NCBI RefSeq assembly: GCF_016801985.1 | Contig: NZ_JAEVLS010000003.1 | Span: 1-64,000, forward strand | From: Steroidobacter gossypii | GTDB taxonomy: Bacteria; Pseudomonadota; Gammaproteobacteria; Steroidobacterales; Steroidobacteraceae | Reading direction: 5' to 3' | DNA length: 64,000 bases | Shown: positions 49,154 to 62,507 of the stretch, in pieces | How positions within the stretch are numbered: position 1 is the first letter of the stretch | Layout: the number at the start of each line of letters is the position of its first letter | Notes under the pieces: model-generated | Told to the model about the DNA's origin: nothing | Seen by the model: the letters and a program-made list of their open reading frames with translations, nothing else | Database searches by the model: none | Program-made: the position numbers and the translations under genes

Positions 49154-49230
49154 GGAGCGGTAGTTCAGCTGGTTAGAATACCGGCCTGTCACGCCGGGGG
49201 TCGCGGGTTCGAGTCCCGTCCGCTCCGCCA
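49154..49230 (+). tRNA. tRNA-Asp(GTC), integration site of the mobile element
   Basis: Acceptor GGAGCGG with CCGCTCC, anticodon loop CTGTCAC (GTC) in stem CCGGC/GCCGG, T-loop GGTTCGAGTCC and encoded CCA. The 3' 28 bases belong to the attL repeat of the element that starts here; the tRNA remains complete and should be functional. Confidence 0.96.
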
Positions 49231-50546
49231 GTCCTTTGTGAGTACTTACGCCAACTTAGGCGTCCCCAGCCATCTTCTGGTGGCAAATCAGTGGCAAATT
49301 CTGGGGACGCGAGGGAACGAAGCCCGTCGTGGCTCGCCGCCGGGTAGACCGGCTCCGGTGATCGTTCCATCGCTTGCTTGATCCGTTCGACGTCGGCGTC
49401 TGTTGCGCCCTTCGTCCATGCGGCGTACGTGCTCAGCATCGTCTGTACGCTGTGACCATCCTCCTGCGCCACGAGCAGCACATTCGCGCCGATCATCAAG
49501 CGCCAGCTGATGTATGAGTGGCGCGCGTTATAGGGCTCGCGGTAGCGAAGCTTTCTTGACTCCAGCACATAGCGCCAACGGTCGTAGGGATAGGAGAGGT
49601 TCACGATCGGCGCGCCGTCCTCCTGGAAGAAAACGCGCTCGTGCTGAATCTTGCCCGCCTGCGCGAGCGCGGTTCGCAGTTCCAGTTGCCGCTTCAAAAC
49701 CTGCAGCGCGCGTCCACACAGTGCGATGTCCCGATCCTCGCGGGTCTTGGTGCGGTCCTTCTCCTTGCCGAGCACGATGGCCTTGTTGATCGCGATAGTC
49801 CCCTTGGTGGTGTCGCAGTCGTGAACGGTCAAGGCGATCTGCTCTGACTGCCGTAGGCCGGTGAAGAAACGAAACTCCTCGTAGTTGCCGTGCGCCGCGC
49901 CGAACTCCGCGTGAGACGCCGCGATGATTTTCTCTCCCTCTTCGATCGTGAAGGGGTCGATCGGCGGGCGATCCTTCTTCGTGATCCGAAGCGTATCGAG
50001 CCCCGTGGCCGGGTTGTGGTTGCGCGGGTGGTCTTTGTATCCAAACTCGAAGGCGCATCGCAGGGCGCTGACGATGTTGTTGTATGTCTTCTTCTTGCGT
50101 GTGTGAGCGGCCGCGATGGCGGAGAGGCGGGAGTAGGTGACCTCCTCGAAGACATCCTCTCCAATGGCGGGGCTCCACACCGAGTTCAGAATCCTTCGGT
50201 ATCCGTTGACCGTCGAGAACGCGAGACTGTTCATCTCGACCAGCATGTCGCAGTGAGCGAGGAATCCATCAAACACTTCTCTACAGGTCCGGCCTGAGCT
50301 GTTCGGGGCAATCGCCTTGAGTTCGTCACGGAGCTTGTAGTCTGGAAATTCGTCGACGAAGCGGAAGGTGCCCGCGTCGATTCGCGCCTTGATGCCCTTG
50401 AGCCGTTCGCGCGCCCGTCGCAAGTTCGTTTCGGTCGGCGCTATTGGCAATGTCGGGCGATATCGCTTGCCGTCGAAGACAAAGGTGAACTCGATGCGAT
50501 CGCTCCCTTTGGCTCGAACGCCTCCACTCAAAGATCTTCTACCCAT
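49173..50546 (-). CDS. Tyrosine recombinase (integrase) of the element
   Basis: A 457-aa site-specific recombinase with an N-terminal arm-binding part (IEFTFVFDGKRYRPTLPI), core-binding SAM-like part (about 85-170) and catalytic domain: R232 (FTGLRQSEQI), K267, R342 (YNARHSY, Tyr in place of the usual first His), H365 (EDGHSVQ) and the nucleophile Y374 (MLSTYAAW). The last 19 or so codons are antisense tRNA-Asp sequence, so its stop codon is supplied by the attachment site. It points into the tRNA gene. The start has AGAGG close upstream. Confidence 0.92.
   Translation of the reverse strand: MGRRSLSGGVRAKGSDRIEFTFVFDGKRYRPTLPIAPTETNLRRARERLKGIKARIDAGTFRFVDEFPDYKLRDELKAIAPNSSGRTCREVFDGFLAHCDMLVEMNSLAFSTVNGYRRILNSVWSPAIGEDVFEEVTYSRLSAIAAAHTRKKKTYNNIVSALRCAFEFGYKDHPRNHNPATGLDTLRITKKDRPPIDPFTIEEGEKIIAASHAEFGAAHGNYEEFRFFTGLRQSEQIALTVHDCDTTKGTIAINKAIVLGKEKDRTKTREDRDIALCGRALQVLKRQLELRTALAQAGKIQHERVFFQEDGAPIVNLSYPYDRWRYVLESRKLRYREPYNARHSYISWRLMIGANVLLVAQEDGHSVQTMLSTYAAWTKGATDADVERIKQAMERSPEPVYPAASHDGLRSLASPEFATDLPPEDGWGRLSWRKYSQRTGGADGTRTRDPRRDRPVF
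49203..49242. repeat. attL: 40-bp direct repeat at tRNA-Asp 3' end
   Basis: Identical over 40 bases to 60807-60846; the flanking bases differ on both sides. It contains the last 28 bases of tRNA-Asp plus 12 bases beyond. This is the classic duplicated core of tyrosine-recombinase integration in a tRNA gene. Confidence 0.93.
49279..49300. repeat. Integrase arm-type repeats, left end
   Basis: Two tandem copies of the core GTGGCAAAT (GGTGGCAAAT at 49279-49288 and AGTGGCAAAT just after). The same pair recurs at the right end at 60710-60731. TACTTACGCC is also shared, at 49243-49252 and 60793-60802. Such paired sites at both ends suit integrase or excisionase arm binding. Confidence 0.6.
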
Positions 50547-51087: not shown

Positions 51088-51603
51088 CTACGGCTCCGTG
51101 AAACGGCCGGTGTGGATGAACACTGAGCATGCTTTCACGAACGGTTCCGGGGGATTGTTCTCGCCGAAGCCGATGACCACCTTGCCCTTGGACAACAGCT
51201 TATGAACCAGCGGCGTGAAGTCACAATCGCTCGTGACCAAGGCAAAGCAATCGACGCGCTCCGTATACAGTAGATCCATGGCATCGATTGTCATGCACAT
51301 ATCGAGAGCGTTCTTGCCCTTCGTATAGGCGAACTGCTGGATCGGCTGAATGGCGAACGGATGCAGCTTGGGCTCCCAACCCATAGGCTTCTTCCAGTTC
51401 CCGTACGCCCGTCGGATATTGATCGTGCCCTGGCCCGCGAGTTCGTCGAGGATGCCACCGATGGCGTCGGGCCTTGCGTTCTCGCAGTCGATCAACAGGG
51501 CGATGTGCATATCGAGCGACCGGCGTTCTCGGTACGCGTCGAACCACACATCTACGTTTCGCCGGAACGAGGATGAGACTCGCATATCGCGCCTCGCATT
51601 CAC
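51088..51603 (-). CDS. NYN-domain (PIN-like) putative ribonuclease
   Basis: A 171-aa protein with a NYN/LabA-type PIN-like fold: HIALLIDCENARPDAIGGIL holds the first catalytic Asp, KGKNALDMCMTIDAMDLLY the second acidic cluster and FALVTSDCDFTPLV the third, as in metal-dependent RNases of this family. GTG 51603 forms a GTGA overlap with the XRE gene stop, suggesting translational coupling; ATG 51510 would begin immediately at the domain. The pairing with an antitoxin-like regulator hints at a regulated nuclease, or stabilisation module (inference). Confidence 0.82.
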   Translation of the reverse strand: MNARRDMRVSSSFRRNVDVWFDAYRERRSLDMHIALLIDCENARPDAIGGILDELAGQGTINIRRAYGNWKKPMGWEPKLHPFAIQPIQQFAYTKGKNALDMCMTIDAMDLLYTERVDCFALVTSDCDFTPLVHKLLSKGKVVIGFGENNPPEPFVKACSVFIHTGRFTEP

Positions 51604-52915: not shown

Positions 52916-53914
52916 TCAGCGAACTAACGGCTTATCTCTCCCTGACGGCTCACGGACTTGCTCTATCAGATCAGCCGCCAACCATTGCTTGTCCGTGCGC
53001 GGCGGGGGCATCTGATCCACGAATCTCGACACTCGATCGGCAAGCTGATGCCTTCCCTCGGCCGCGAGAAGATCGCGCACCGCATGCCACCCTCGCACGA
53101 TCTCCCGCCTGGTTCGCTGTAGCCTCGCGGTGCCGGACTGATCGAGAGCGCCAGACCTTAGCTCGCGCACTACGTCGCGTACCCGCGTCGCCATGTGCGA
53201 TGACTCGCCTCTCTGCGCGGCCCTGAAAATGGAATCCAGCTTTGACGTACGGCTTTGCCCGCGAACGCTGCGCGTCGTGGCGTTCGCCGCGACGCCTCGC
53301 CCTCGAAGTTGACGTGCGAACTCCGAGCGCCAATGCCGTAGCGTCTCCTTACTTATATTGAGCCGCACGCCCGCTTCACTGACCGCCTTCACGACGACAT
53401 GCACGTGAGGATGGGGCTCGTCCGTGTGCAATACCATCGCGTACCGATGCTTGCGGCCGAACTCCTCGCGAGCGAAGTCGTGGACGGCCGCGAGGACCTT
53501 CTTGGGTGGCGTGCCCGCCGGCATGGAAAAGATGATCTTATGGACCAGCTTCGGCGGCTTCCGCCGATTGAAGGCGAACAAGTCCCGGTGCTTGCGATCC
53601 TCGTCCATATCCAAGTCCCAATCCCGGATGATCTGCTGACCTGCGTCCTTGCCAACCAACCGCTCGCCGTCGTCGGTCTCAATTTCCAGGTCGCCACGCC
53701 GGCCGATGTAATCGAAGTGCGCAGCCACGCCGCGGCTTGAGCTTGAGCCGCGGCCGCTGGTTACCTTGACCATCACTTCAGGGGTGCGCGAGACCGTCCG
53801 GCCGATCAGAGCGATCTGAGCGGGCGACAGATACATCCGCTTGCCCGACCCTGCACGGCCATGACTGCCGATGTCCAACCAGGGCTCGCCGCCATCAAGT
53901 CGAAACGTCTTCAT
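52916..53914 (-). CDS. Relaxase/mobilization nuclease (MobA-like)
   Basis: A 332-aa DNA-nicking transfer enzyme. A candidate nucleophile is Y69 (AAHFDYIGRRG), and the metal-binding motif III is LHTDEPHPHVHVVVKA (H163, H170, H172), as in MOBP-type relaxases of the Pfam Relaxase family. ATG 53914 has GGAGG 9 bases upstream; 53938 is an in-frame alternative. It overlaps the mobC end by 20 bases. Its length is short (no helicase or primase part), fitting a small mobilizable element. Confidence 0.87.
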   Translation of the reverse strand: MKTFRLDGGEPWLDIGSHGRAGSGKRMYLSPAQIALIGRTVSRTPEVMVKVTSGRGSSSSRGVAAHFDYIGRRGDLEIETDDGERLVGKDAGQQIIRDWDLDMDEDRKHRDLFAFNRRKPPKLVHKIIFSMPAGTPPKKVLAAVHDFAREEFGRKHRYAMVLHTDEPHPHVHVVVKAVSEAGVRLNISKETLRHWRSEFARQLRGRGVAANATTRSVRGQSRTSKLDSIFRAAQRGESSHMATRVRDVVRELRSGALDQSGTARLQRTRREIVRGWHAVRDLLAAEGRHQLADRVSRFVDQMPPPRTDKQWLAADLIEQVREPSGRDKPLVR

Positions 53915-54440
53915 CCCCAGTCCTCCATGAACGCGCATTGGCCTTGACCAAGTCCTTGGTGTGTTCGCGCAGCGCTTCGCACGCCTTCAGGATCGCGAGC
54001 AGATCCCTTCGGGTGGGTCCGCCTGCGCCTTGATGAGACAATCGCGTCAGCTGGTTGAGGTTGCGGCCGATGGCGCCGATCTCGGCGACCGACTGCTTGA
54101 GCGCCATCAGTTCGGCTTTGGGCAGCGGAGAGAGGTTTCGCAGGTGAGCGCGTACAAGAACAGATATATACGTCGCCACCGCCATCTGCCGAGACGCCGC
54201 CCGCTCAGCGAGCAGCAGCTTGTCGTCTGGATGCAGCCGGACACTCGTGCGCGATCCTCGCAACCGTCGCCCTGGCACATTCAGAACGTCGGCGTCGATC
54301 TCACCAGCGTCACGCATCGCCGAATCAACGAGCCACTTCAGCAACGCGGACTCGGTCATCTGCCGCCGTTCCGCGAGACTGCGGAAGCGAGTTTTCATCT
54401 CTGGCGAGACGCTCGCGGCGATGAGGTGCGCGGTACCCAT
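53895..54440 (-). CDS. MobC-like relaxosome accessory protein
   Basis: A 181-aa protein with a ribbon-helix-helix-like N-terminus (VSPEMKTRFRSLAERRQMTE), a second such segment (TSVRLHPDDKLLLAERAASR) and the family's helical C-terminal LNQLTRLSHQGAGG region (bacterial mobilization protein MobC). It helps the relaxase to melt oriT. ATG 54440 is chosen since upstream codons to 54563 are unlike the family. The relaxase gene overlaps its end. Confidence 0.82.
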   Translation of the reverse strand: MGTAHLIAASVSPEMKTRFRSLAERRQMTESALLKWLVDSAMRDAGEIDADVLNVPGRRLRGSRTSVRLHPDDKLLLAERAASRQMAVATYISVLVRAHLRNLSPLPKAELMALKQSVAEIGAIGRNLNQLTRLSHQGAGGPTRRDLLAILKACEALREHTKDLVKANARSWRTGDEDVST

Positions 54441-54893: not shown

Positions 54894-55298
54894 ATGGACA
54901 GCTGGGTTGAACTCTTCGGGGCCGTCACCGCGCTGCTGACGGCGCTGTCTCAGAAGAAGCAAGCGGACGAAGCGCACGTTGAGCAGACGCTCCAGGCTTT
55001 GAATTCGGCCTATTACGCCACAGAGGGCTACTTCGCTGCGCTCCAGGAGGGTGGCTTGCCGTCACAGGAACGGCAATTTCAAGTGGCGCAGAGCTGGGAC
55101 AACGCGTCCCATATGGTTCGCCGCTATGATCAAAACCTCGCCAGCCGTCTGAGTCTGAAGAGTCGTTTTTGGCGGGAGGGAGCTGCATGGACGGAGGAAC
55201 AGAGAGAGCAGGCCAATATCGGGCTTGCAGCGGTTCGGCGCGATGGTCGATTGCTTTTGATGCCAAAATTTCGCCGCAGTAAGAAGAAGTCTCGCTAA
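54894..55298 (+). CDS. Hypothetical protein, first gene of cargo operon
   Basis: A 134-aa protein with no recognised domain. The N-terminus is hydrophobic and then polar helical (ELFGAVTALLTALSQKKQAD; EQTLQALNSAYYATEGYFAA), and the C-terminus is strongly basic (KFRRSKKKSR), which could bind nucleic acid. GGAG lies about 10 bases before ATG 54894. It precedes the methylase gene by 46 bases and is more AT-rich than core genes, so it probably belongs to the cargo module. Confidence 0.65.
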   Translation: MDSWVELFGAVTALLTALSQKKQADEAHVEQTLQALNSAYYATEGYFAALQEGGLPSQERQFQVAQSWDNASHMVRRYDQNLASRLSLKSRFWREGAAWTEEQREQANIGLAAVRRDGRLLLMPKFRRSKKKSR

Positions 55299-55344
55299 TG
55301 CGGCTAGTCTATCTGCCACTAGCTGGTTGAGATCCCGTTCGACG

Positions 55345-56184
55345 ATGACCGTTAGGCTAGTAGACCAGCGCAACCGCCATGCGGGTTGCGACGGAGCAAA
55401 GCCCATATTGAGGTGGGCGGGAAGCAAGCGCCTATTGCTTCCCAAGCTTCTTAGCCTCGCGCCGCGAGAGTACCGTAGGTATATCGAGCCGTTCTGCGGT
55501 TCGGCCTGCTTGTTCCTGGCTCTCAACCCGCCGAAATCCATTCTCGCGGACCTAAATCCGCATTTGATATCCACGTACAAGCAGGTGAAGTCGCGGCCTA
55601 CCGATGTGGCGGAGGTAATGGCGTCGTGGAGCGCCACTCAGAAGGAGTATCTCCGGGTGCGCGGCGCATCCATGACGACCGCAGTCGAGAGGGCCGGCCG
55701 GTTCCTCTACCTTAATCGCTACTCGTTCAATGGTGTCTATCGCGAGAACCTCAAAGGTCAGTTCAATGTTCCGTTCGGCGGGGCACGCAAGAACGGTCAA
55801 CTTGCGACTGTTAGCGAACTGATCGCCTTCTCGCGCGCCCTGGCTCACACGCGCCTAGTTTGTTCAGATTTTGAGGACGTTATTGCGGAGGCGAAAGCCG
55901 GCGATTTCCTCTACCTTGACCCGCCGTACCATTATGGAACAGCACGAAACAGGGGCGAGTACGGCTACGGCGCATTCTCGTCCGCTGACGTAGACAGGTT
56001 TGTGAGTTCAGTAGCAGCGGCCAGCAAGCGGGGCGCGCAAATACTGATCTCTTACAATCGCGCACACCAACTGAAGAAGGCTCTGAAGGGATGGGCGCTT
56101 GCCCATTGCTCGACAAGGCGAAGCATCGCTGGTTTTACACAATCAAGACGCGTAGTCCGCGAGTACTTGCTGCGAAATTACTAG
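55345..56184 (+). CDS. Dam-type DNA adenine-N6 methyltransferase (D12 class)
   Basis: A 279-aa enzyme: ILRWAGSKRLLLPKL (residues 21-35, SAM and substrate motif of D12 methylases), YIEPFCGSACLFLAL (about 46-60) and catalytic DPPYHYG (192-198). It should methylate adenine, probably in a short palindrome such as GATC, though the target cannot be read from sequence. No restriction endonuclease is adjacent, so it is an orphan or the self-marking part of the module. ATG 55345 is used; TTG 55327 is in frame. The gene ends just before the phosphoesterase start. Confidence 0.88.
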   Translation: MTVRLVDQRNRHAGCDGAKPILRWAGSKRLLLPKLLSLAPREYRRYIEPFCGSACLFLALNPPKSILADLNPHLISTYKQVKSRPTDVAEVMASWSATQKEYLRVRGASMTTAVERAGRFLYLNRYSFNGVYRENLKGQFNVPFGGARKNGQLATVSELIAFSRALAHTRLVCSDFEDVIAEAKAGDFLYLDPPYHYGTARNRGEYGYGAFSSADVDRFVSSVAAASKRGAQILISYNRAHQLKKALKGWALAHCSTRRSIAGFTQSRRVVREYLLRNY

Positions 56185-56186
56185 GC

Positions 56187-57368
56187 ATGACCTCTACCTT
56201 TCGATTGGCCGTACTTAGTGACCTCCATGCAGCGCCAAAGAGTGCCAACGCTGCTGCGACAGACGTTAAGCTGTTTACGGATCAAGAGCACATTGCTGCT
56301 ACCGAACATCCGATCGGCGGATTGAAGGCACTGATTCAGAGGCTCGGGCTATCTGCAGATGCGGTCGTGTGCCCCGGAGACATGACAAACAAGGCGAACG
56401 CTCAAGCCCTGGTGTATGTTTGGAAAGAGCTTCACGAGATCAGTTCGCAGTTGGGCGCGAGCGGAATAGTGGCAACTGTCGGGAATCACGATGTCGATTC
56501 ACGAGGCCACTCCCCTGATGGCTTTCCACGTGAGTCACTGATGAGGCTAGTGCCTCCCTTCCCCGCAACCGATCAGAGCTTGTCAGATCGATACTGGGCG
56601 CATGGGTTCTGCTTTCAGCAAGTGGGGTCGGCCCGCTTTCTTGTGATAAACACTTGTTGGTTGCATGAAGCTCGTGACGAACTTGAGCGCGGCGTCATAA
56701 CAGACTATTCGTTAGAGCGGATCGAGAAGCACCTCACAACCTCGCCGAAATCATCCTTGAACATTGCGGTGTGCCACCATCATCCGCATGTCCATTCTGA
56801 CCTAAAGCTAGGTGTGGACGATGTAATTCGTAATGGCCAGCGCTTCCTCAATATGCTGGCGGACAATGGGCAATGGATGGTCATCCACGGGCACAAGCAC
56901 CATCCAAAGATTGAGTATGCGCAAGGTGAGTTTCGGCAGCCGATCGTTCTCGCTTCTGGAAGCTTTTCTGGAAGGCTCGAAGGTGACAACGCGTTAGTTT
57001 CAAAGAATTACTTTCACATTATCGACATTCAGCGCACAAGTCCAAGATTGGCCGGGCAAGTGCGCTCTTGGAACTGGATTCCGGGCTTAGGATGGGCGGA
57101 ATATGCAAGCACTCCTCCGGGCTTTCCTTCCCGAGCTGGGTTCGGCAGTTCAACTGCTGTTGACAAGCTTGCTCAGGAAGTAGCGAGCATCATCGGATCG
57201 CGGGCAGCGATTCGATGGGAGGAGCTAACACAACAGCAGCCGGAGCTTGCGTTCCTGATGCCCAAACAACTCCGCGCTCTAATCTCCGACCTCAGGGATA
57301 CTCATAACATTCATACAGTGTATGACGACCTTAATTATCCAAAGCAAATGGGGCCAGAGCTTTCATGA
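56187..57368 (+). CDS. Calcineurin-like metallophosphoesterase
   Basis: A 393-aa two-metal phosphoesterase with all signature motifs: SDLHAAP (DxH), CPGDMTNKAN (GD), VGNHDVD (GNHD), AVCHHHPHVHSDL and VIHGHKHH (GHxH). The C-terminal 130 residues are specific to this protein and have no recognised domain. ATG 56187 is chosen; the frame is open upstream within the methylase gene. It overlaps the ATPase start by ATGA (57365-57368). Substrate could be nucleic acid or a nucleotide; unknown. Confidence 0.88.
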   Translation: MTSTFRLAVLSDLHAAPKSANAAATDVKLFTDQEHIAATEHPIGGLKALIQRLGLSADAVVCPGDMTNKANAQALVYVWKELHEISSQLGASGIVATVGNHDVDSRGHSPDGFPRESLMRLVPPFPATDQSLSDRYWAHGFCFQQVGSARFLVINTCWLHEARDELERGVITDYSLERIEKHLTTSPKSSLNIAVCHHHPHVHSDLKLGVDDVIRNGQRFLNMLADNGQWMVIHGHKHHPKIEYAQGEFRQPIVLASGSFSGRLEGDNALVSKNYFHIIDIQRTSPRLAGQVRSWNWIPGLGWAEYASTPPGFPSRAGFGSSTAVDKLAQEVASIIGSRAAIRWEELTQQQPELAFLMPKQLRALISDLRDTHNIHTVYDDLNYPKQMGPELS

Positions 57369-59224
57369 GCAGCGTTGAGCCCGAAGCCTTCTTTGATCAG
57401 TTTAATGCGAAATATCTCGAACCTGAGCAGGTGGCTGCGGGATACGTCTACTCCAAACATCTTGAAGACCTATGTGGTCACTACAACGCAGTACTTATCG
57501 GCCCCAGAGGAAGCGGAAAGACGACCCTCCTGAAAATGCTGCAACCGGCGGCCCTGGATGCATGGAAGGGACCGCGCGCCGACAAGTTTCGAAGCCGGAT
57601 AAACTATAGCGGGGTTTTCATTGCTTCGGACATTAGCTGGTCGCGGCAGCTTCGAGCGCTCGGATACGGGAAGCTAAACGAGGATAATCACCGCACCCTG
57701 GTCCTAGCCTGCTTCACAACCCATGTGCTGCATGCAGTCCTAGAGACCATGGTTTCACGGACCAGCCAGTCAGCGAGTTTCAAGGCTGTTCGGATCTCTG
57801 GTCCTGAAGAAGAAGTCTTAGCCAAGCAGTTGCTGAGCGAACTTCAGCTTGCGGCGCCTCTTCCGACTTTGATCGCAGTCAAGCAGGCATTGCGCTCTCG
57901 CTTGTCCACGATACGGCAACTCGGGAACAGAGGCAGCCTGAAGAATCAAGTCGACTTTCAATCTGAACTGGCCGACCTGAGATTTCTTCATCTCGACTTC
58001 CTTGATCTTTGCTCCAACATATCGTCGCTATTCAACGATGCAGTCGGCGAGAAGGACGCTCGCTGGGCGCTTCTCTTCGACGAACTAGAAACCGCCCCAG
58101 ATTGGATAGTTGATCAGCTGTTTACAGCGCTGCGAGTGTCGAACCCAAGAGTCTATTTAAAGCTTGCAATCAGCCCAGTCTCGGCAACCGCCTACCGCTC
58201 ACTCATGTCCGTAGACGGCGCTGCCGATCGACATGACTACAAAAACATCCCTCTCTGGTACACTGACAAAGTTGATGCAAAGGGCTTCTGCGAAGACGTA
58301 TGGCGGTCTTTGACATCCAAAGCGGGGCTGTCTGTCAGTGCTCGCGAAGCGCTCGGCCCTTCGGCGTTCGAGCCAGTATCTCCAGAGCAAGTAAGGCTGC
58401 GAAATCCGTATGCCGCTGGTGGGTATTGGCATCGCATTTTTCAATCACTTAGATCGAAGGACAGAACATTCGCAGCTTTCTTGCGTGCACGTAACATCGA
58501 TCTCGATCGATTGGCTAACGCGGACCAACAAACTAAGGACGCGGTTCTGCGAAGAGCGGCGCCTATTGCGGCCGTTCGAAATTTCTATCTTCACGAGGAT
58601 CGCCTGGGTAATGTCACAGCCAGGCAGCGCAAGACCACCGCTCTATACGCTGGGGCGGAATCCATATTCGCGGTTAGCGAAGGAAATCCGAGGTGGCTGA
58701 TTGGTCTACTAACGCCGATGATCTCCTTCATGGTTGAGAATCGGACTAAGCGAGTTCCTCCTGCGGTGCAGGCAGAGCAGATCGATAATGCGGCCGATCG
58801 CTTACTCGCTCTTCTACGCACGATTCCAGTCCCCTCTGAGTTCGAGACCGATTCCGCGCTCGGCCTCAATAGAATCGTCGGAATGATCGGCGTGCAACTT
58901 CATAACGATCTGATGGACAAGAATTTTTCTCTTGATCCTCGACTTTCATTTGTTGTCGATAAGGCGGTGAAGAGTTCTACAGTTCAGCTACTCTCGTCGG
59001 GCATAAACAGAGGTGCGGTGATCCTCGTTGCGGGCACGCCGGCTCAATCTGTAGTTGGAGATATGCAAGGAGTGGTGCTAAGGCTCAGCTACTTGCTTGC
59101 AGCCAAATACGGCCTTCCCTTGCGCAAGGGAAAGGCTACTAACTTGTCTCTGTTGGTGGAAGGCCCGCCACCTCCCGCGCCTCCGCCGCCTCCGGAGCCG
59201 CAGCTTAAGCTCTCAGGTCTTTAA
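57365..59224 (+). CDS. P-loop ATPase of ORC/AAA-like type
   Basis: A 619-aa protein. Walker A GPRGSGKT is at residues 46-53 (NAVLIGPRGSGKTTLLKML), Walker B in WALLFDELETAPDWI near 235-249 and a GNPRWLIGLL stretch near 440 resembles the sensor-2/winged region of ORC- or STAND-type ATPases. The end is proline-rich (GPPPPAPPPPPEP), likely a flexible protein-binding tail. It is translationally coupled with the phosphoesterase and followed by the next gene within 2 bases, so they probably form one complex. The exact family is not recognised. Confidence 0.8.
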   Translation: MSSVEPEAFFDQFNAKYLEPEQVAAGYVYSKHLEDLCGHYNAVLIGPRGSGKTTLLKMLQPAALDAWKGPRADKFRSRINYSGVFIASDISWSRQLRALGYGKLNEDNHRTLVLACFTTHVLHAVLETMVSRTSQSASFKAVRISGPEEEVLAKQLLSELQLAAPLPTLIAVKQALRSRLSTIRQLGNRGSLKNQVDFQSELADLRFLHLDFLDLCSNISSLFNDAVGEKDARWALLFDELETAPDWIVDQLFTALRVSNPRVYLKLAISPVSATAYRSLMSVDGAADRHDYKNIPLWYTDKVDAKGFCEDVWRSLTSKAGLSVSAREALGPSAFEPVSPEQVRLRNPYAAGGYWHRIFQSLRSKDRTFAAFLRARNIDLDRLANADQQTKDAVLRRAAPIAAVRNFYLHEDRLGNVTARQRKTTALYAGAESIFAVSEGNPRWLIGLLTPMISFMVENRTKRVPPAVQAEQIDNAADRLLALLRTIPVPSEFETDSALGLNRIVGMIGVQLHNDLMDKNFSLDPRLSFVVDKAVKSSTVQLLSSGINRGAVILVAGTPAQSVVGDMQGVVLRLSYLLAAKYGLPLRKGKATNLSLLVEGPPPPAPPPPPEPQLKLSGL

Positions 59225-59226
59225 TC

Positions 59227-60177
59227 ATGCCGCTCAAAACTGCCAGCACTCAGCAGTTCGAGAACATCCCCGCAAGCGTCGATTTGTTGCTTTGTGCTTG
59301 CGGCTACGAGAGTCGAGCGATTCACGTCGCAAGCAGGGCTTCCACTCTCGCGAGGCGGAAGTTGGCATTTGGGTTCGACTCGCAGCACGAACTGTACTAC
59401 GAACAGAACAAGGCATGGTTTCAGAGTCAAGGATTTGTTGTTCGGGACGTATCGGATACTGAGTTTGATTTACACATTCAACAAGCAATATCCGACGCGT
59501 GCGTGGCGACAGCAACACCGATGGTTGTCGTGGATGTCTCCTGCATGAACCGAGTCAGGCTCGCACACTTAGTGAACGCGTTGAATAGCTCGACGGCTAA
59601 CGTCATCGACGTCATGTTTGCATATAACCTGGCTGAATACTCGGCGCCGTCACTCGATGAAGCGCCGACAAGCGTCGCCGAGCCAGTGATTCCAGAGTTT
59701 GCTGGATGGACTACTTATCCAGAGAGGCCGCCGGCGGCATTAATCGGGCTAGGTTACGAACAGAGCCGTGCCATTGGGATTGTCGATCACTTGGAGATAA
59801 ACAATGCCGCTTGGGCCTTTATTCCGCGTGGCCCGATTGATGAGTATTCGACCAGCGTTGATACGGCGAACCAATCACTCTTCGATATGATTCACGTGGA
59901 TGGCCGGAAGATTCTTTACGACGTCATGAATCCGGCATCGCTCTTTCGCGAGGTGAACTCGCTCGTGGAACTGCTCAAGCAAATCTACAATCCGATACTC
60001 ATTCCGTTTGGCCCAAAGATCTTCGCGCTGGTCTCCCTACTCGTCGCCTCGCTGCACGGGGAGGTAGGGGTCTGGCGCGTAAGCAGCGGCACCATGGGAA
60101 AGGCTACAGAGCGAGCTGCATCTTCGTACACCACCGTGCTTCGGACAACATTTCAGAGGGATGCGGAAAGAACATAA
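59227..60177 (+). CDS. Unrecognised protein of the cargo operon
   Basis: A 316-aa protein that I do not recognise. The N-terminal half has alternating strands and helices: VDLLLCACGYESRA, KLAFGFDSQHELYY and MVVVDVSCMNRVRLAHLV, a Rossmann-like pattern that recalls nucleotide-sensing domains (inference only). The C-terminal half includes NPILIPFGPKIFALVSLLVA and EVGVWRVSSG. It starts 2 bases after the ATPase stop and is the last gene of the operon. Nothing indicates truncation. Confidence 0.7.
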   Translation: MPLKTASTQQFENIPASVDLLLCACGYESRAIHVASRASTLARRKLAFGFDSQHELYYEQNKAWFQSQGFVVRDVSDTEFDLHIQQAISDACVATATPMVVVDVSCMNRVRLAHLVNALNSSTANVIDVMFAYNLAEYSAPSLDEAPTSVAEPVIPEFAGWTTYPERPPAALIGLGYEQSRAIGIVDHLEINNAAWAFIPRGPIDEYSTSVDTANQSLFDMIHVDGRKILYDVMNPASLFREVNSLVELLKQIYNPILIPFGPKIFALVSLLVASLHGEVGVWRVSSGTMGKATERAASSYTTVLRTTFQRDAERT

Positions 60178-60690
60178 CCACACGGTCGAGGTTTCCCGAT
60201 GCGAAGCTCCACACACGAGTCAACATTGCTCCCGAAATGGAGTCGACGTAACTCGCTTTACGTCTACGACCAACAGGCCGGTGGCAAAATGCTGCTCCTC
60301 CTTTCCAACCCGCTCAGGGAAATTCACTAGATTCGAAGTGGGGCCGACAAAATGGGGACAAGCGTTTTTTATTCGTTGCAAGTCTCTGAGAGAAACGGTG
60401 CTTTAGTTTCCCAGATCCAATCCATCGTTATCGGGCATGTTAGCCGTGCATCGAGCGCCTATTGAGCCAACCGGGAACGGCCCAGGACATCGGCCCGTCA
60501 CGCTGTTGGCTCGACGGGTCCACAGCTTGGCATACTCCATCTTCGGCCGTTCTGAAAAGAACGCGCCTAGCAGAACGTGCAGGCTGCGGAGGACGAAGCG
60601 GGTGTATGCACACGACTCGTTCGGCATACCCCCGTCAAACTGCCATTCAAGAACAAGCCGCGGCGAGTCGCATTTGAAGCTGAGTCGAGT

Positions 60691-60715
60691 GCCACCAAGG
60701 AGCAACCTTGGTGGC
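60691..60715. repeat. Perfect hairpin near the element right end
   Basis: GCCACCAAGG (60691-60700), AGCAA loop, CCTTGGTGGC (60706-60715): a perfect 10-bp stem, whose right arm runs into the GGTGGCAAAT repeat. It could end transcription of the cargo operon or act as a protein-binding site. Confidence 0.55.
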
Positions 60716-60731
60716 AAATCTGGTGGCAAAT
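60710..60731. repeat. Integrase arm-type repeats, right end
   Basis: GGTGGCAAAT occurs twice, at 60710-60719 and 60722-60731, in the same orientation as the pair at the left end (49279-49300). Confidence 0.6.
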
Positions 60732-60806
60732 CGGGGGAGAGTGGGGTGTCTGAGGGGATTTCGATCAGCGACGGATCAACAACTTATTGATCTACTTACG
60801 CCTCCG

Positions 60807-60846
60807 GCGGGTTCGAGTCCCGTCCGCTCCGCCAGTCCTTTGTGAG
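60807..60846. repeat. attR: 40-bp direct repeat
   Basis: Perfect copy of 49203-49242, containing the 28-base 3' end of tRNA-Asp, without the 5' tRNA part. It marks the right boundary of the element. Confidence 0.93.
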
Positions 60847-61165
60847 ATTCTCAAGCCACTCGCGCGTCCTGCGCGGTGGCTCTGCTGGCAAACCCGCCAG
60901 CCAGTGCTCAGCTTGGCTTTCATCATTCCCCCCGATGATGCTCGACTGCATCGCTGCCGATCCGCCTGCAGGTCCGTTGGCAGCACTTCCTTCAACCACA
61001 GCGGACTGCTGCTGATATCGCTCGATGCTGAGCGTTCGACGCTCGGGTCGATCTTTGCTTCGCACGCGCAGACATAAGCGCACGCCGCTGGCCCATAACT
61101 TCCGCCGCAACCATTCAACTGCGATGTGCCTGCGTTGACGGCGGAGAACGCCTGGGATATTCTTA
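60847..61165. other. Region upstream of arsR without supported gene
   Basis: This is chromosomal sequence that adjoined tRNA-Asp before the element was inserted. Long minus-strand frames run through it but have no recognised features. The arsR promoter should lie at its right end, next to the operator at 61166. Confidence 0.4.
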
Positions 61166-61194: not shown

Positions 61195-61518
61195 TTGAGT
61201 TCCAATGCCGCGCAATGCAGGGCCCCGAAGCGATCCCCGTCCCGCCGCAAGCTGGATGAGGAGACGCTCGCGAGCTTGTGCAAGGCATTGGCGCATCCGG
61301 CACGCGTGAAATTGCTGAACTATCTTGCCGACTATGGCACCTGCTACTTCGGCAAGCTCACTGACATCTTGCCGCTGGCGCCCTCGACGATTTCTCAGCA
61401 CGTGTCCGTGTTGAAGGAGGCTGGCCTGATCCTTGGATCTGACGACAACACGCGCACCTGCTATTGCGTCAATGCCGAGCGGTTAGATGAGTTGAAGGAA
61501 TTGATCGCCGCGCTCTGA
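61195..61518 (+). CDS. arsR: ArsR-family metalloregulator
   Basis: A 107-aa winged-helix repressor. It has the DNA-recognition helix LPLAPSTISQHVSVLKEAGLI and three cysteines, C50 (GTCYF), C89 and C91 (RTCYCVN), placed as in a group of ArsR proteins that bind arsenite with one N-side and two C-side Cys. The start is TTG 61195. It is followed by a second copy of the operator and then arsH, so arsR and the arsH-soxC operon should be derepressed together. Confidence 0.88.
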   Translation: MSSNAAQCRAPKRSPSRRKLDEETLASLCKALAHPARVKLLNYLADYGTCYFGKLTDILPLAPSTISQHVSVLKEAGLILGSDDNTRTCYCVNAERLDELKELIAAL

Positions 61519-61533
61519 TCCTTTGTTGCCGAT

Positions 61534-61551
61534 ATTCGTAATTCGACGAAC
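61534..61551. promoter_or_regulatory. ArsR operator 2, upstream of arsH
   Basis: ATTCGTAATTCGACGAAC is the reverse complement of operator 1 except for one base. It lies 14 bases before the arsH start and 15 after the arsR stop. Confidence 0.7.
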
Positions 61552-61565
61552 TACGATGGAGTGGG

Positions 61566-62507
61566 ATGATGACTCTCAACGGCTCTGATGTGCCCTTGCC
61601 CGCCAAGCGGGACAGCTCCTCGCCGGCTGCAGCTGCTCCATGTTGCGGCGGACCTGCCACCGCCAACAGTGGCGCATGCTGTGCAAAGGACGAGGAAGCG
61701 AAAGCTTCGGGAAGTCAGGGTTGCGGGTGTTCGTCGAGCGAAGCCAGCCCGGTAGCAACGGCAGGTTGCTGTACTGGCGTGGCCACTAAGCTTCCAAACA
61801 TCGTGCGAGAGCACTTTCAAGTTCCAGATCTCTCGCGGTTGCAGCCACGACAAATGCAGCACGCTCCGCGACTCCTGGTGCTGTACGGGTCCACGCGCCA
61901 GCGCTCGTTCAGTCGCTTTCTTGCGGAGGAGGCGGGCCGATTGCTGGTGGCCTATGGAGCGGAGGTGCGCTTCTTCAACCCTTCCGGCTTGCCACTGCCC
62001 GACGACGCTCCCGACACTCATCCGAAGGTTCAGGAACTACGGCAGCTGGCAGACTGGTGCGAGGGCATGGTCTGGAGTTCTCCCGAGCGACATGGAGCGA
62101 TGTCGGGAATCATGAAAGCACAGATCGATTGGATCCCTCTGAACTCCGGAGCCGTGCGTCCGACGCAAGGCAAGACGCTCGCTGTCATGCAGGTGTCAGG
62201 TGGATCTCAGTCCTTCAACGCGGTGAACCAGATGCGCGTGCTTGGTCGATGGATGCGCATGCTCACCATTCCAAATCAATCGTCGGTGCCGAAAGCATTC
62301 CAAGAATTCGATGAGCACGGCCGCATGAAGCCGTCCGCGCTGTACGAACGAGTTGTGGACGTTACCGAGGAGCTGATGAAGTTCACCTTGTTGACGAGGG
62401 GCGTTTCCAGTTATCTGGTCGACCGGTATAGCGAGCGCAAGGAGAGCGCTGCGGAGTTGGCAAAGCGTGTGCAGCTAAACCAGGCAGTCACGGGATTGGG
62501 GCGATGA
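61566..62507 (+). CDS. arsH: ArsH-family NADPH-dependent FMN reductase with Cys-rich N-terminus
   Basis: A 313-aa flavoprotein. The core from about residue 75 ([20 protein letters not shown]) is ArsH, with FMN-binding [15 protein letters not shown] and the [20 protein letters not shown] signature; ArsH oxidises or reduces organoarsenicals. The first 70 residues are an unusual extension with four cysteine pairs (C26-C27, C38-C39, C53/C55, C68-C69) that could bind arsenite or another thiophilic metal. ATG 61566 and 61569 are adjacent. It is 47 bases after arsR and overlaps soxC by ATGA. Confidence 0.9.

Follow-up and report, generated by a model that had tools for sequence, protein, structure and literature searches.

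The 64,000-nt stretch of Steroidobacter gossypii DNA that was analysed (the window) carries five consecutive open reading frames on the forward strand. They are separated by 46 bases, 2 bases, an ATGA overlap (57365-57368) and 2 bases, in agreement with the coordinates given by the first reading, which had been made from the sequence alone (the sequence-only reading). An alternative TTG start at 55327, upstream of the ATG of the Dam gene, would give a protein of 285 aa, and the phosphoesterase start is an ATG at 56187, internal to the open reading frame as listed. The operon lies on an integrated element of 11.6 kb, the ends of which are a 40-nt direct repeat (100% identical). The tRNA-Asp gene, the repeats, a recombinase and a relaxase (both below the cut-offs of their models) bear out the earlier claim of a mobilizable element. 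The claim of an AT-rich composition was likewise upheld: the G+C content is 0.53-0.56 in 2-kb windows over 55001-61000 and 0.58-0.64 elsewhere in the window, with 0.57 in its first 4 kb. The element also encodes an NYN-domain-like protein (51088-51603; phrog_37744, E 3e-37), and just beyond it (61195-62507) lie genes that we take, by eye, to encode an ArsR-like regulator and an ArsH-like protein.

Table 1. Features of the operon and of the element that carries it (positions in the window).
Feature	Position	Strand	Evidence or remark
tRNA-Asp	49154-49230		3' end overlapped by left repeat
Tyrosine recombinase (integrase) of element	49173-50546	-	XerD/XerC models E 3e-11, below cut-offs
Left end repeat of element	49203-49242		
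MobP1-like relaxase of element	52916-53938	-	NF041450 109.6 bits, below cut-off 200
ORF, 134 aa, accessory, outside conserved module	54894-55298	+	phrog_12412 E 9e-9
Dam-family N6-adenine DNA methyltransferase, 279 aa from ATG	55345-56184	+	TIGR00571, PF02086
Metallophosphoesterase (calcineurin-like) with C-terminal winged helix, 393 aa	56187-57368	+	PF24408, Metallophos_2
ORC/CDC6-like P-loop ATPase, 619 aa	57365-59224	+	PF24389
Tandem CARF protein, CARF6 family, no effector domain, 316 aa	59227-60177	+	CARF6 profile, predicted fold
Right end repeat of element	60807-60846		

The distribution of these genes was determined by homology searches. When 72,556 plasmid records were searched by tblastn, the ATPase and CARF queries hit the identical five records; the order phosphoesterase-ATPase-CARF was found in 4/4 plasmid records examined, with Dam upstream in 3/4. 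When the ATPase alignment was used to scan genome contigs, at least 74 loci were obtained. Our own profile search gave 77 module loci among the matches listed (the window, four plasmids and 72 contigs), after removal of L081 (a partial, chance P-loop match), L023 (the same record as L004) and L001-L003 (duplicates of the window, whose locus is also present as L068). Phosphoesterase, ATPase and CARF genes were found in the same order and on the same strand in 75 of these 77 listed loci, and contig ends truncate both exceptions (L036 and L077). Dam lies directly upstream in 57 of the 77 and directly downstream in L039 and L061. With starts assigned mechanically, each of the three junctions had a median gap of -4 (an ATGA-type overlap). 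Pairwise distances between the components were correlated (ATPase-phosphoesterase, 0.88; ATPase-CARF, 0.86; Dam-ATPase, 0.80; uncorrected for relatedness), and no other gene cluster was present in more than six listed loci, that of an ABC-type protein being the commonest. Computation thereby established a four-gene operon and its spread, and the neighbourhood survey proposed in the sequence-only reading showed that the operon recurs, is mobile and includes a methylase.

The five-gene module originally proposed was confirmed for four of its genes and failed for the first. The 134-aa protein gave no phmmer match at E 10 among the other loci (best blastp match, E 0.38), and its gene was rejected as a module component given that homologues are absent there. 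Since no convincing homologue was found elsewhere, the conserved unit comprises four genes, not five. The 134-aa protein resembles a phage family of unknown function, and its gene precedes the operon in the window locus only.

The hosts belong to the Pseudomonadota, Bacteroidota, Actinomycetota, Acidobacteriota, Verrucomicrobiota, Planctomycetota, Gemmatimonadota and SAR324, the last presumably an eighth phylum under recent taxonomy (the label of L018 is contradictory). The module is nevertheless rare and patchy. With the centre genome included, the CARF gene was present in 2/296 genomes of the window's order, and the counts for the module in other genome sets were 1/369, 2/397, 2/381 and, near full length, 6 of 345; 16 of these 345 genomes matched at E 0.001, and among the six (one split in two) three were new. 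The module is also borne on plasmids but is not confined to them, since the contigs that carry many of its loci measure between several hundred kb and megabases. At L072:4813-9774 and L060:3052-4227 the module adjoins TniQ, and in L072 it also adjoins Cas6; these proteins match structures of CRISPR-associated transposons, which we take to be of type I-F3, and the two modules are probably cargo of such transposons. Next to the L100 module are a TniB-like protein and a sequence that matches rve weakly. At blastn sensitivity, E. coli genomes gave no DNA match to the Vibrio copy. A tblastn search of phage records with the CARF protein was likewise negative, and none of 61 pattern matches to the ATPase in viral contigs was confirmed.

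The methyltransferase exceeded the cut-off of TIGR00571 (194.7 versus 114.85 bits) and also matched PF02086. By sequence, its nearest solved structure is DpnM (2dpm, E 5.8e-42), the DpnII methylase, which methylates GATC, and the module enzyme is predicted to make GmATC. The motif DPPY was present in 60/60 Dam proteins encoded at the loci, a set that includes the one from the flank of L070, and the pattern [YF]N[GS]x[YWFC]RxN in 56/60. The ATPase matched PF24389 (ORC-CDC6-like) over nearly its full length (E 5e-104); R48 and K52 of its Walker A motif, GPRGSGKT, and D239-E240 of Walker B were found in 76/76 proteins. The phosphoesterase matched PF24408 (wHTH-Calcineurin_assc) with 40.7 bits (cut-off 27) and Metallophos_2 with 23.1 bits, below the cut-off of 27, and the residues of its metal site (D12, H14, D65, N100, H101, H197, H236 and H238) were invariant in 70/70. 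The Pfam names ORC-CDC6-like and wHTH-Calcineurin_assc show that these domains had been noticed before. The active-site motifs are computed to be intact and, given the invariant motifs of phosphoesterase, ATPase and Dam, all four look like working proteins as far as sequence can tell; the ATPase probably serves as a sensor or switch that loads onto DNA. Two loci (L101:5029-9009 and L102:5175-9187) represent a diverged branch, with ATPases of 97-128 bits to the profile and the Walker A motif GSRGSGKT.

The phosphoesterase had been called nuclease-like, a view that profile comparisons changed. Its profile was nearest to Lmo2642 (2xmo, 9.6e-18) and Rv0805, presumably cyclic-nucleotide phosphodiesterases, a GpdQ-like phosphohydrolase and SMPDL3A, and SbcD was weaker. 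According to family models (E up to 0.001), cAMP phosphodiesterase was matched by 37/70 proteins, SpdA by 26/70, SbcD by 10/70 and PdeM by 8/70. The anti-phage model DS9_1 (NCBIfam) was matched by 69/70, below cut-off; the window protein reached 42.1 bits, against a curated cut-off of 420 bits, and that of L101, from the diverged branch, E 8e-32, also below cut-off. As the protein is thus nearer to cyclic-nucleotide phosphodiesterases and DS-9 than to the SbcD/Mre11 nucleases, nucleotide cleavage is as possible as DNA cleavage. SMPDL3A is reported to cleave cGAMP, and DS-9 with mutated catalytic residues to lose defence (PMC13092281). From its sequence, the phosphoesterase is the probable effector.

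The 316-aa protein had been thought to have no recognisable family. It has no match in Pfam; it matched CARF6 in PADLOC (E 2e-79), as did 71/71 homologues, none with an E above 1e-3 and the best with 6e-140. The structure prediction that had been suggested as a check gave, by computation, a model with a tandem CARF fold of two Rossmann-like halves, in which the invariant residues D103, G176, G262 and K264 are placed at strand ends. In the fold comparison, the best 43 rows by Z were all CARF/SAVED proteins of type III CRISPR, CBASS or their viral inhibitors. An internal duplication was not significant when the profile halves were compared (probability 18-21%). Based on the model, the CARF protein is a probable nucleotide sensor. 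Neither the operon nor the clusters common to at least three listed loci contained a nucleotide cyclase that we recognised. A link to type III CRISPR found no support: Csm1-type Cas10 (TIGR02578) exceeded its cut-off in 0/45 genomes (the module's own genome and 44 hosts), with matches in three of at most 27.9 bits versus a cut-off of 170. With PF22335, short matches appeared in 20 of the 45 (11 over cut-off), but this model was set aside as uninformative because the E. coli control also matched.

Dam was not found directly upstream in 20 of the 77 listed loci. The host genomes were therefore compared by a search with the Dam model at its cut-off of 114.85 bits. Among 57 hosts with an adjacent Dam (55 upstream, 2 downstream), 53 had no second Dam over the cut-off; the other four (L021, borderline with 115.3 bits, L057, L065 and L077) are all metagenome assemblies. 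Adjacency was assigned by coordinates, the listed Dam place being matched in 55/56; in L080 this place overlaps a shortened open reading frame but starts outside it, and the locus was counted as adjacent. By contrast, all nine hosts in which the module lacks an adjacent methylase although its upstream flank is complete (L013, L020, L052, L060, L063, L066, L070, L073 and L075) carry Dam elsewhere, with 277-314 bits; L070 has one at a distance of 4 kb on the opposite strand and another on a separate contig. The association was significant by Fisher's test (p 1.9e-8, or 2e-10 with the three later loci described below; within the Gammaproteobacteria, 7/7 versus 0/9, p 8.7e-5), with relatedness ignored throughout. 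Three further loci (L014, L015 and L017), the hosts of which lack Dam, have another D12 methylase of one related group directly upstream, that of L014 matching PF02086 over cut-off. Five loci with upstream flanks cut by contig ends stand outside the 9/9: Dam was found elsewhere for L010, L035 and L072 and was absent from the assemblies of L036 and L037. L005, L006 and L007 are plasmid records, with chromosomes outside the Dam search. Thus, complete loci without a methylase of their own were seen only in hosts with Dam elsewhere. No convincing Dam remnant was found in 14 methylase-less or edge loci (best match outside L070, E 0.011). In L070 (1644-3801), a Dam gene lies beside a gene for a 428-aa protein of DUF6996/DUF6997/DUF7226, and the two may form a restriction-modification pair whose methylase is of the Dam family.

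The methylase-less rows of the ATPase tree (L007 in addition to the nine) require six changes, at least five of them forced by well-supported branches. The label is clustered (1/500 shuffles was as low), and 6/9 losses fall in two gammaproteobacterial clades, a clade-linked pattern. Members of the order of Vibrio usually have Dam, and the rule was used to predict that module copies there would have no Dam beside them. Three new loci (L100, L101 and L102) were found to carry the core; adjacent Dam was absent in 3/3, and the hosts had Dam in 3/3 (293-319 bits). This test is informative only for the missing adjacent Dam, because the order was picked for its usual Dam. A new locus in the order of Mesorhizobium (L105) has an adjacent Dam and no other Dam in the genome. 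As judged from sequence comparison, the operonic Dam is probably a self-marking component that can be exchanged with host Dam; no GATC-recognising subunit was identified in the module.

The genomic neighbourhoods were compared with PADLOC at E 1e-15, using open reading frames of at least 250 aa from the flanks of 20 isolate loci (118 found, 92 scanned) and from control regions of the same 20 genomes (92/174 scanned). The flanks gave nine family rows with one member each, namely AbiEi, AbiEii (two), dGTPase, PD-T4-7 (two), ThsA (two) and CARF_m8, the last of which may be a permease, versus eight matches in the controls (mad3 in six, QatD and mad8). For enrichment in defence islands, the co-occurrence that the sequence-only reading had looked to, there was no clear excess over the matched regions. 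Ten proteins from single flanks were chosen by eye, with no control; among the defence-like ones are a type IV restriction enzyme in L007, CHAT and another phosphoesterase in L006, a Schlafen AlbA_2 protein in L004, HipA in L066 and a KAP NTPase in L070. In four alphaproteobacterial loci (L005, L014, L015 and L034), dCTP-deaminase-like and FMN-oxidoreductase-like genes lie nearby, with a MazG-like gene in three of the four; one member of each cluster was scanned, and these genes are possibly a separate nucleotide-depletion defence. Of the "typical defence layout" asserted earlier, the recurrence and mobility of the operon and the presence of a methylase are upheld; defence itself is an interpretation, and the enrichment of neighbourhoods is not clear.

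The remark in the sequence-only reading that it knew no named system with this gene order was supported, the unit being absent as a system from the libraries and literature searched. We recognised no description of the module there; the CARF census (gkaa635) and a 2020 immune-systems paper in JB were outside this scope and may mention it. The component families are known; that literature yielded neither their combination nor the host-Dam rule. Like type II restriction-modification of the DpnII/GATC kind, the module has a Dam-family methylase nearest to DpnM and, putatively, the logic of a self mark, although here the host Dam can supply the mark. A Dam over the cut-off accompanies the module in 57/57 adjacent hosts and lies elsewhere in 9/9, and three loci have the other D12 enzymes, the GATC specificity being putative. 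Type II systems have a restriction endonuclease, whereas no match of the five proteins to endonuclease models was found at E up to 1, and the module has a three-gene ATP-dependent core with a tandem CARF protein. The BREX locus combines a methyltransferase with the phosphoesterase-type PglZ. The likeness lies in the joining of such proteins in one locus with an ATPase of the ORC/Cdc6 clade, to which the BREX ATPases are assigned (PMC12839542); the five proteins gave no PADLOC match to BREX models (PglZ, BrxC homologues) at E up to 1. Recognition in Type I BREX requires the methyltransferase itself (PMC11842806), whereas that of the module is dispensable where the host has Dam. The module would be a variant of methylation-guided defence in which the defining parts of type II restriction-modification and BREX were not found by sequence.

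Other resemblances concern single components. A metallophosphatase is required for DS-8/DS-9 anti-phage defence (PMC13092281), and the module phosphoesterase matches DS9_1 below cut-off, a model that by its name would be DS-9A. However, DS-9 pairs its phosphatase with a HAD phosphatase, DS-8 fuses it to NACHT, and both are without methylase and CARF. Unlike Can1, which in type III CRISPR is a DNA nuclease with tandem CARF, and unlike SAVED receptors such as Cap5, the CARF protein has no nuclease domain. The 2014 CARF paper describes CARF fused to an AAA+ domain with an arginine inside the P-loop (PMC4012209), which probably corresponds to the PADLOC model CARF_STK_AAA. Such CARF6 kinase-AAA+-CARF-wHTH fusions share the CARF6 profile and the P-loop arginine (R48, 76/76) with the module, in which, however, ATPase and CARF are separate genes that are accompanied by phosphoesterase and Dam. 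SspABCD and other ORC/CDC6 conflict systems couple an ORC/CDC6 ATPase to DNA modification (PMC10853773); SspABCD uses phosphorothioate and other partners, and the module adenine methylation.

Taken together, these sequence comparisons make it reasonably probable that the operon is a methylation-licensed defence module, in which the Dam mark denotes self and the ATPase-phosphoesterase-CARF unit acts on unmarked DNA. More tentatively, and with somewhat less than even confidence, it may be an immune system of a stand-alone tandem CARF nucleotide sensor, a phosphodiesterase and an ORC/CDC6 ATPase that is licensed by genome-wide Dam, with the methylase accompanying it only into mark-less hosts. An old housekeeping mark would then serve as the self password, and restriction-modification logic would be joined to CARF signalling outside CRISPR. 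We infer the defence output, methylation as the self signal and every step of activation. Dam would methylate GATC and mark the entire resident genome as self, and the three core proteins, jointly a surveillance and effector unit, would be held in check on such a genome. DNA without the mark (an incoming phage or plasmid) would switch the unit on; the substrate then cut by the phosphoesterase would be either DNA or a nucleotide, and the CARF protein would sense or tune a nucleotide signal. The core would tolerate only a Dam-methylated genome, and operonic Dam would be needed in mark-less hosts and superfluous in others.

An unlikely alternative is a nucleotide-signalling abortive system, with CARF and phosphoesterase controlling the signal and Dam regulating promoters or the loading of the ATPase at replication rather than distinguishing self from non-self. 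The tandem CARF fold resembles Can1, Csm6 and the SAVED domain of Cap5, all activated by nucleotides, and the phosphoesterase, with its profile neighbours Lmo2642, Rv0805, GpdQ-like and SMPDL3A, favours cAMP phosphodiesterase over SbcD (37/70 versus 10/70). Yet neither a cyclase among the clusters shared by at least three listed loci nor a Csm1-type Cas10 over cut-off in the 45 genomes was recognised, and a genome-wide mark accounts for the exchange of operonic for host Dam better than local control of promoters does.

This exchange could also reflect counter-selection only, with hosts that use Dam in mismatch repair rejecting a second Dam, the gene being lost there and the core having no connection to methylation. 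Excess Dam is mutagenic in E. coli, and gammaproteobacterial hosts account for 7/9 methylase-less loci. We nonetheless regard this as improbable, since methylase-less loci with complete flanks in Dam-free hosts numbered 0/9 and later 0/3, three loci in Dam-free hosts hold a different D12 methylase at the same place, and the losses of L013 and L070 lie outside the Gammaproteobacteria. A maintenance or addiction module, in which ORC/CDC6 and phosphoesterase target plasmid or element DNA and not phage, would suit the occurrence on plasmids and on one integrative element; it appears very improbable, as no antitoxin-like partner was recognised among the clusters common to at least three listed loci and many loci lie on the large contigs mentioned above.

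Host Dam is usually regarded as a mark for repair and replication. If the methylation-licensed reading is true, it would double as the password of a widespread mobile defence, and the hosts able to receive Dam-less copies would become predictable. CARF proteins would act outside type III CRISPR and in connection with DNA modification, and a metallophosphoesterase of the DS-9 kind would be placed in a system with a possible trigger.
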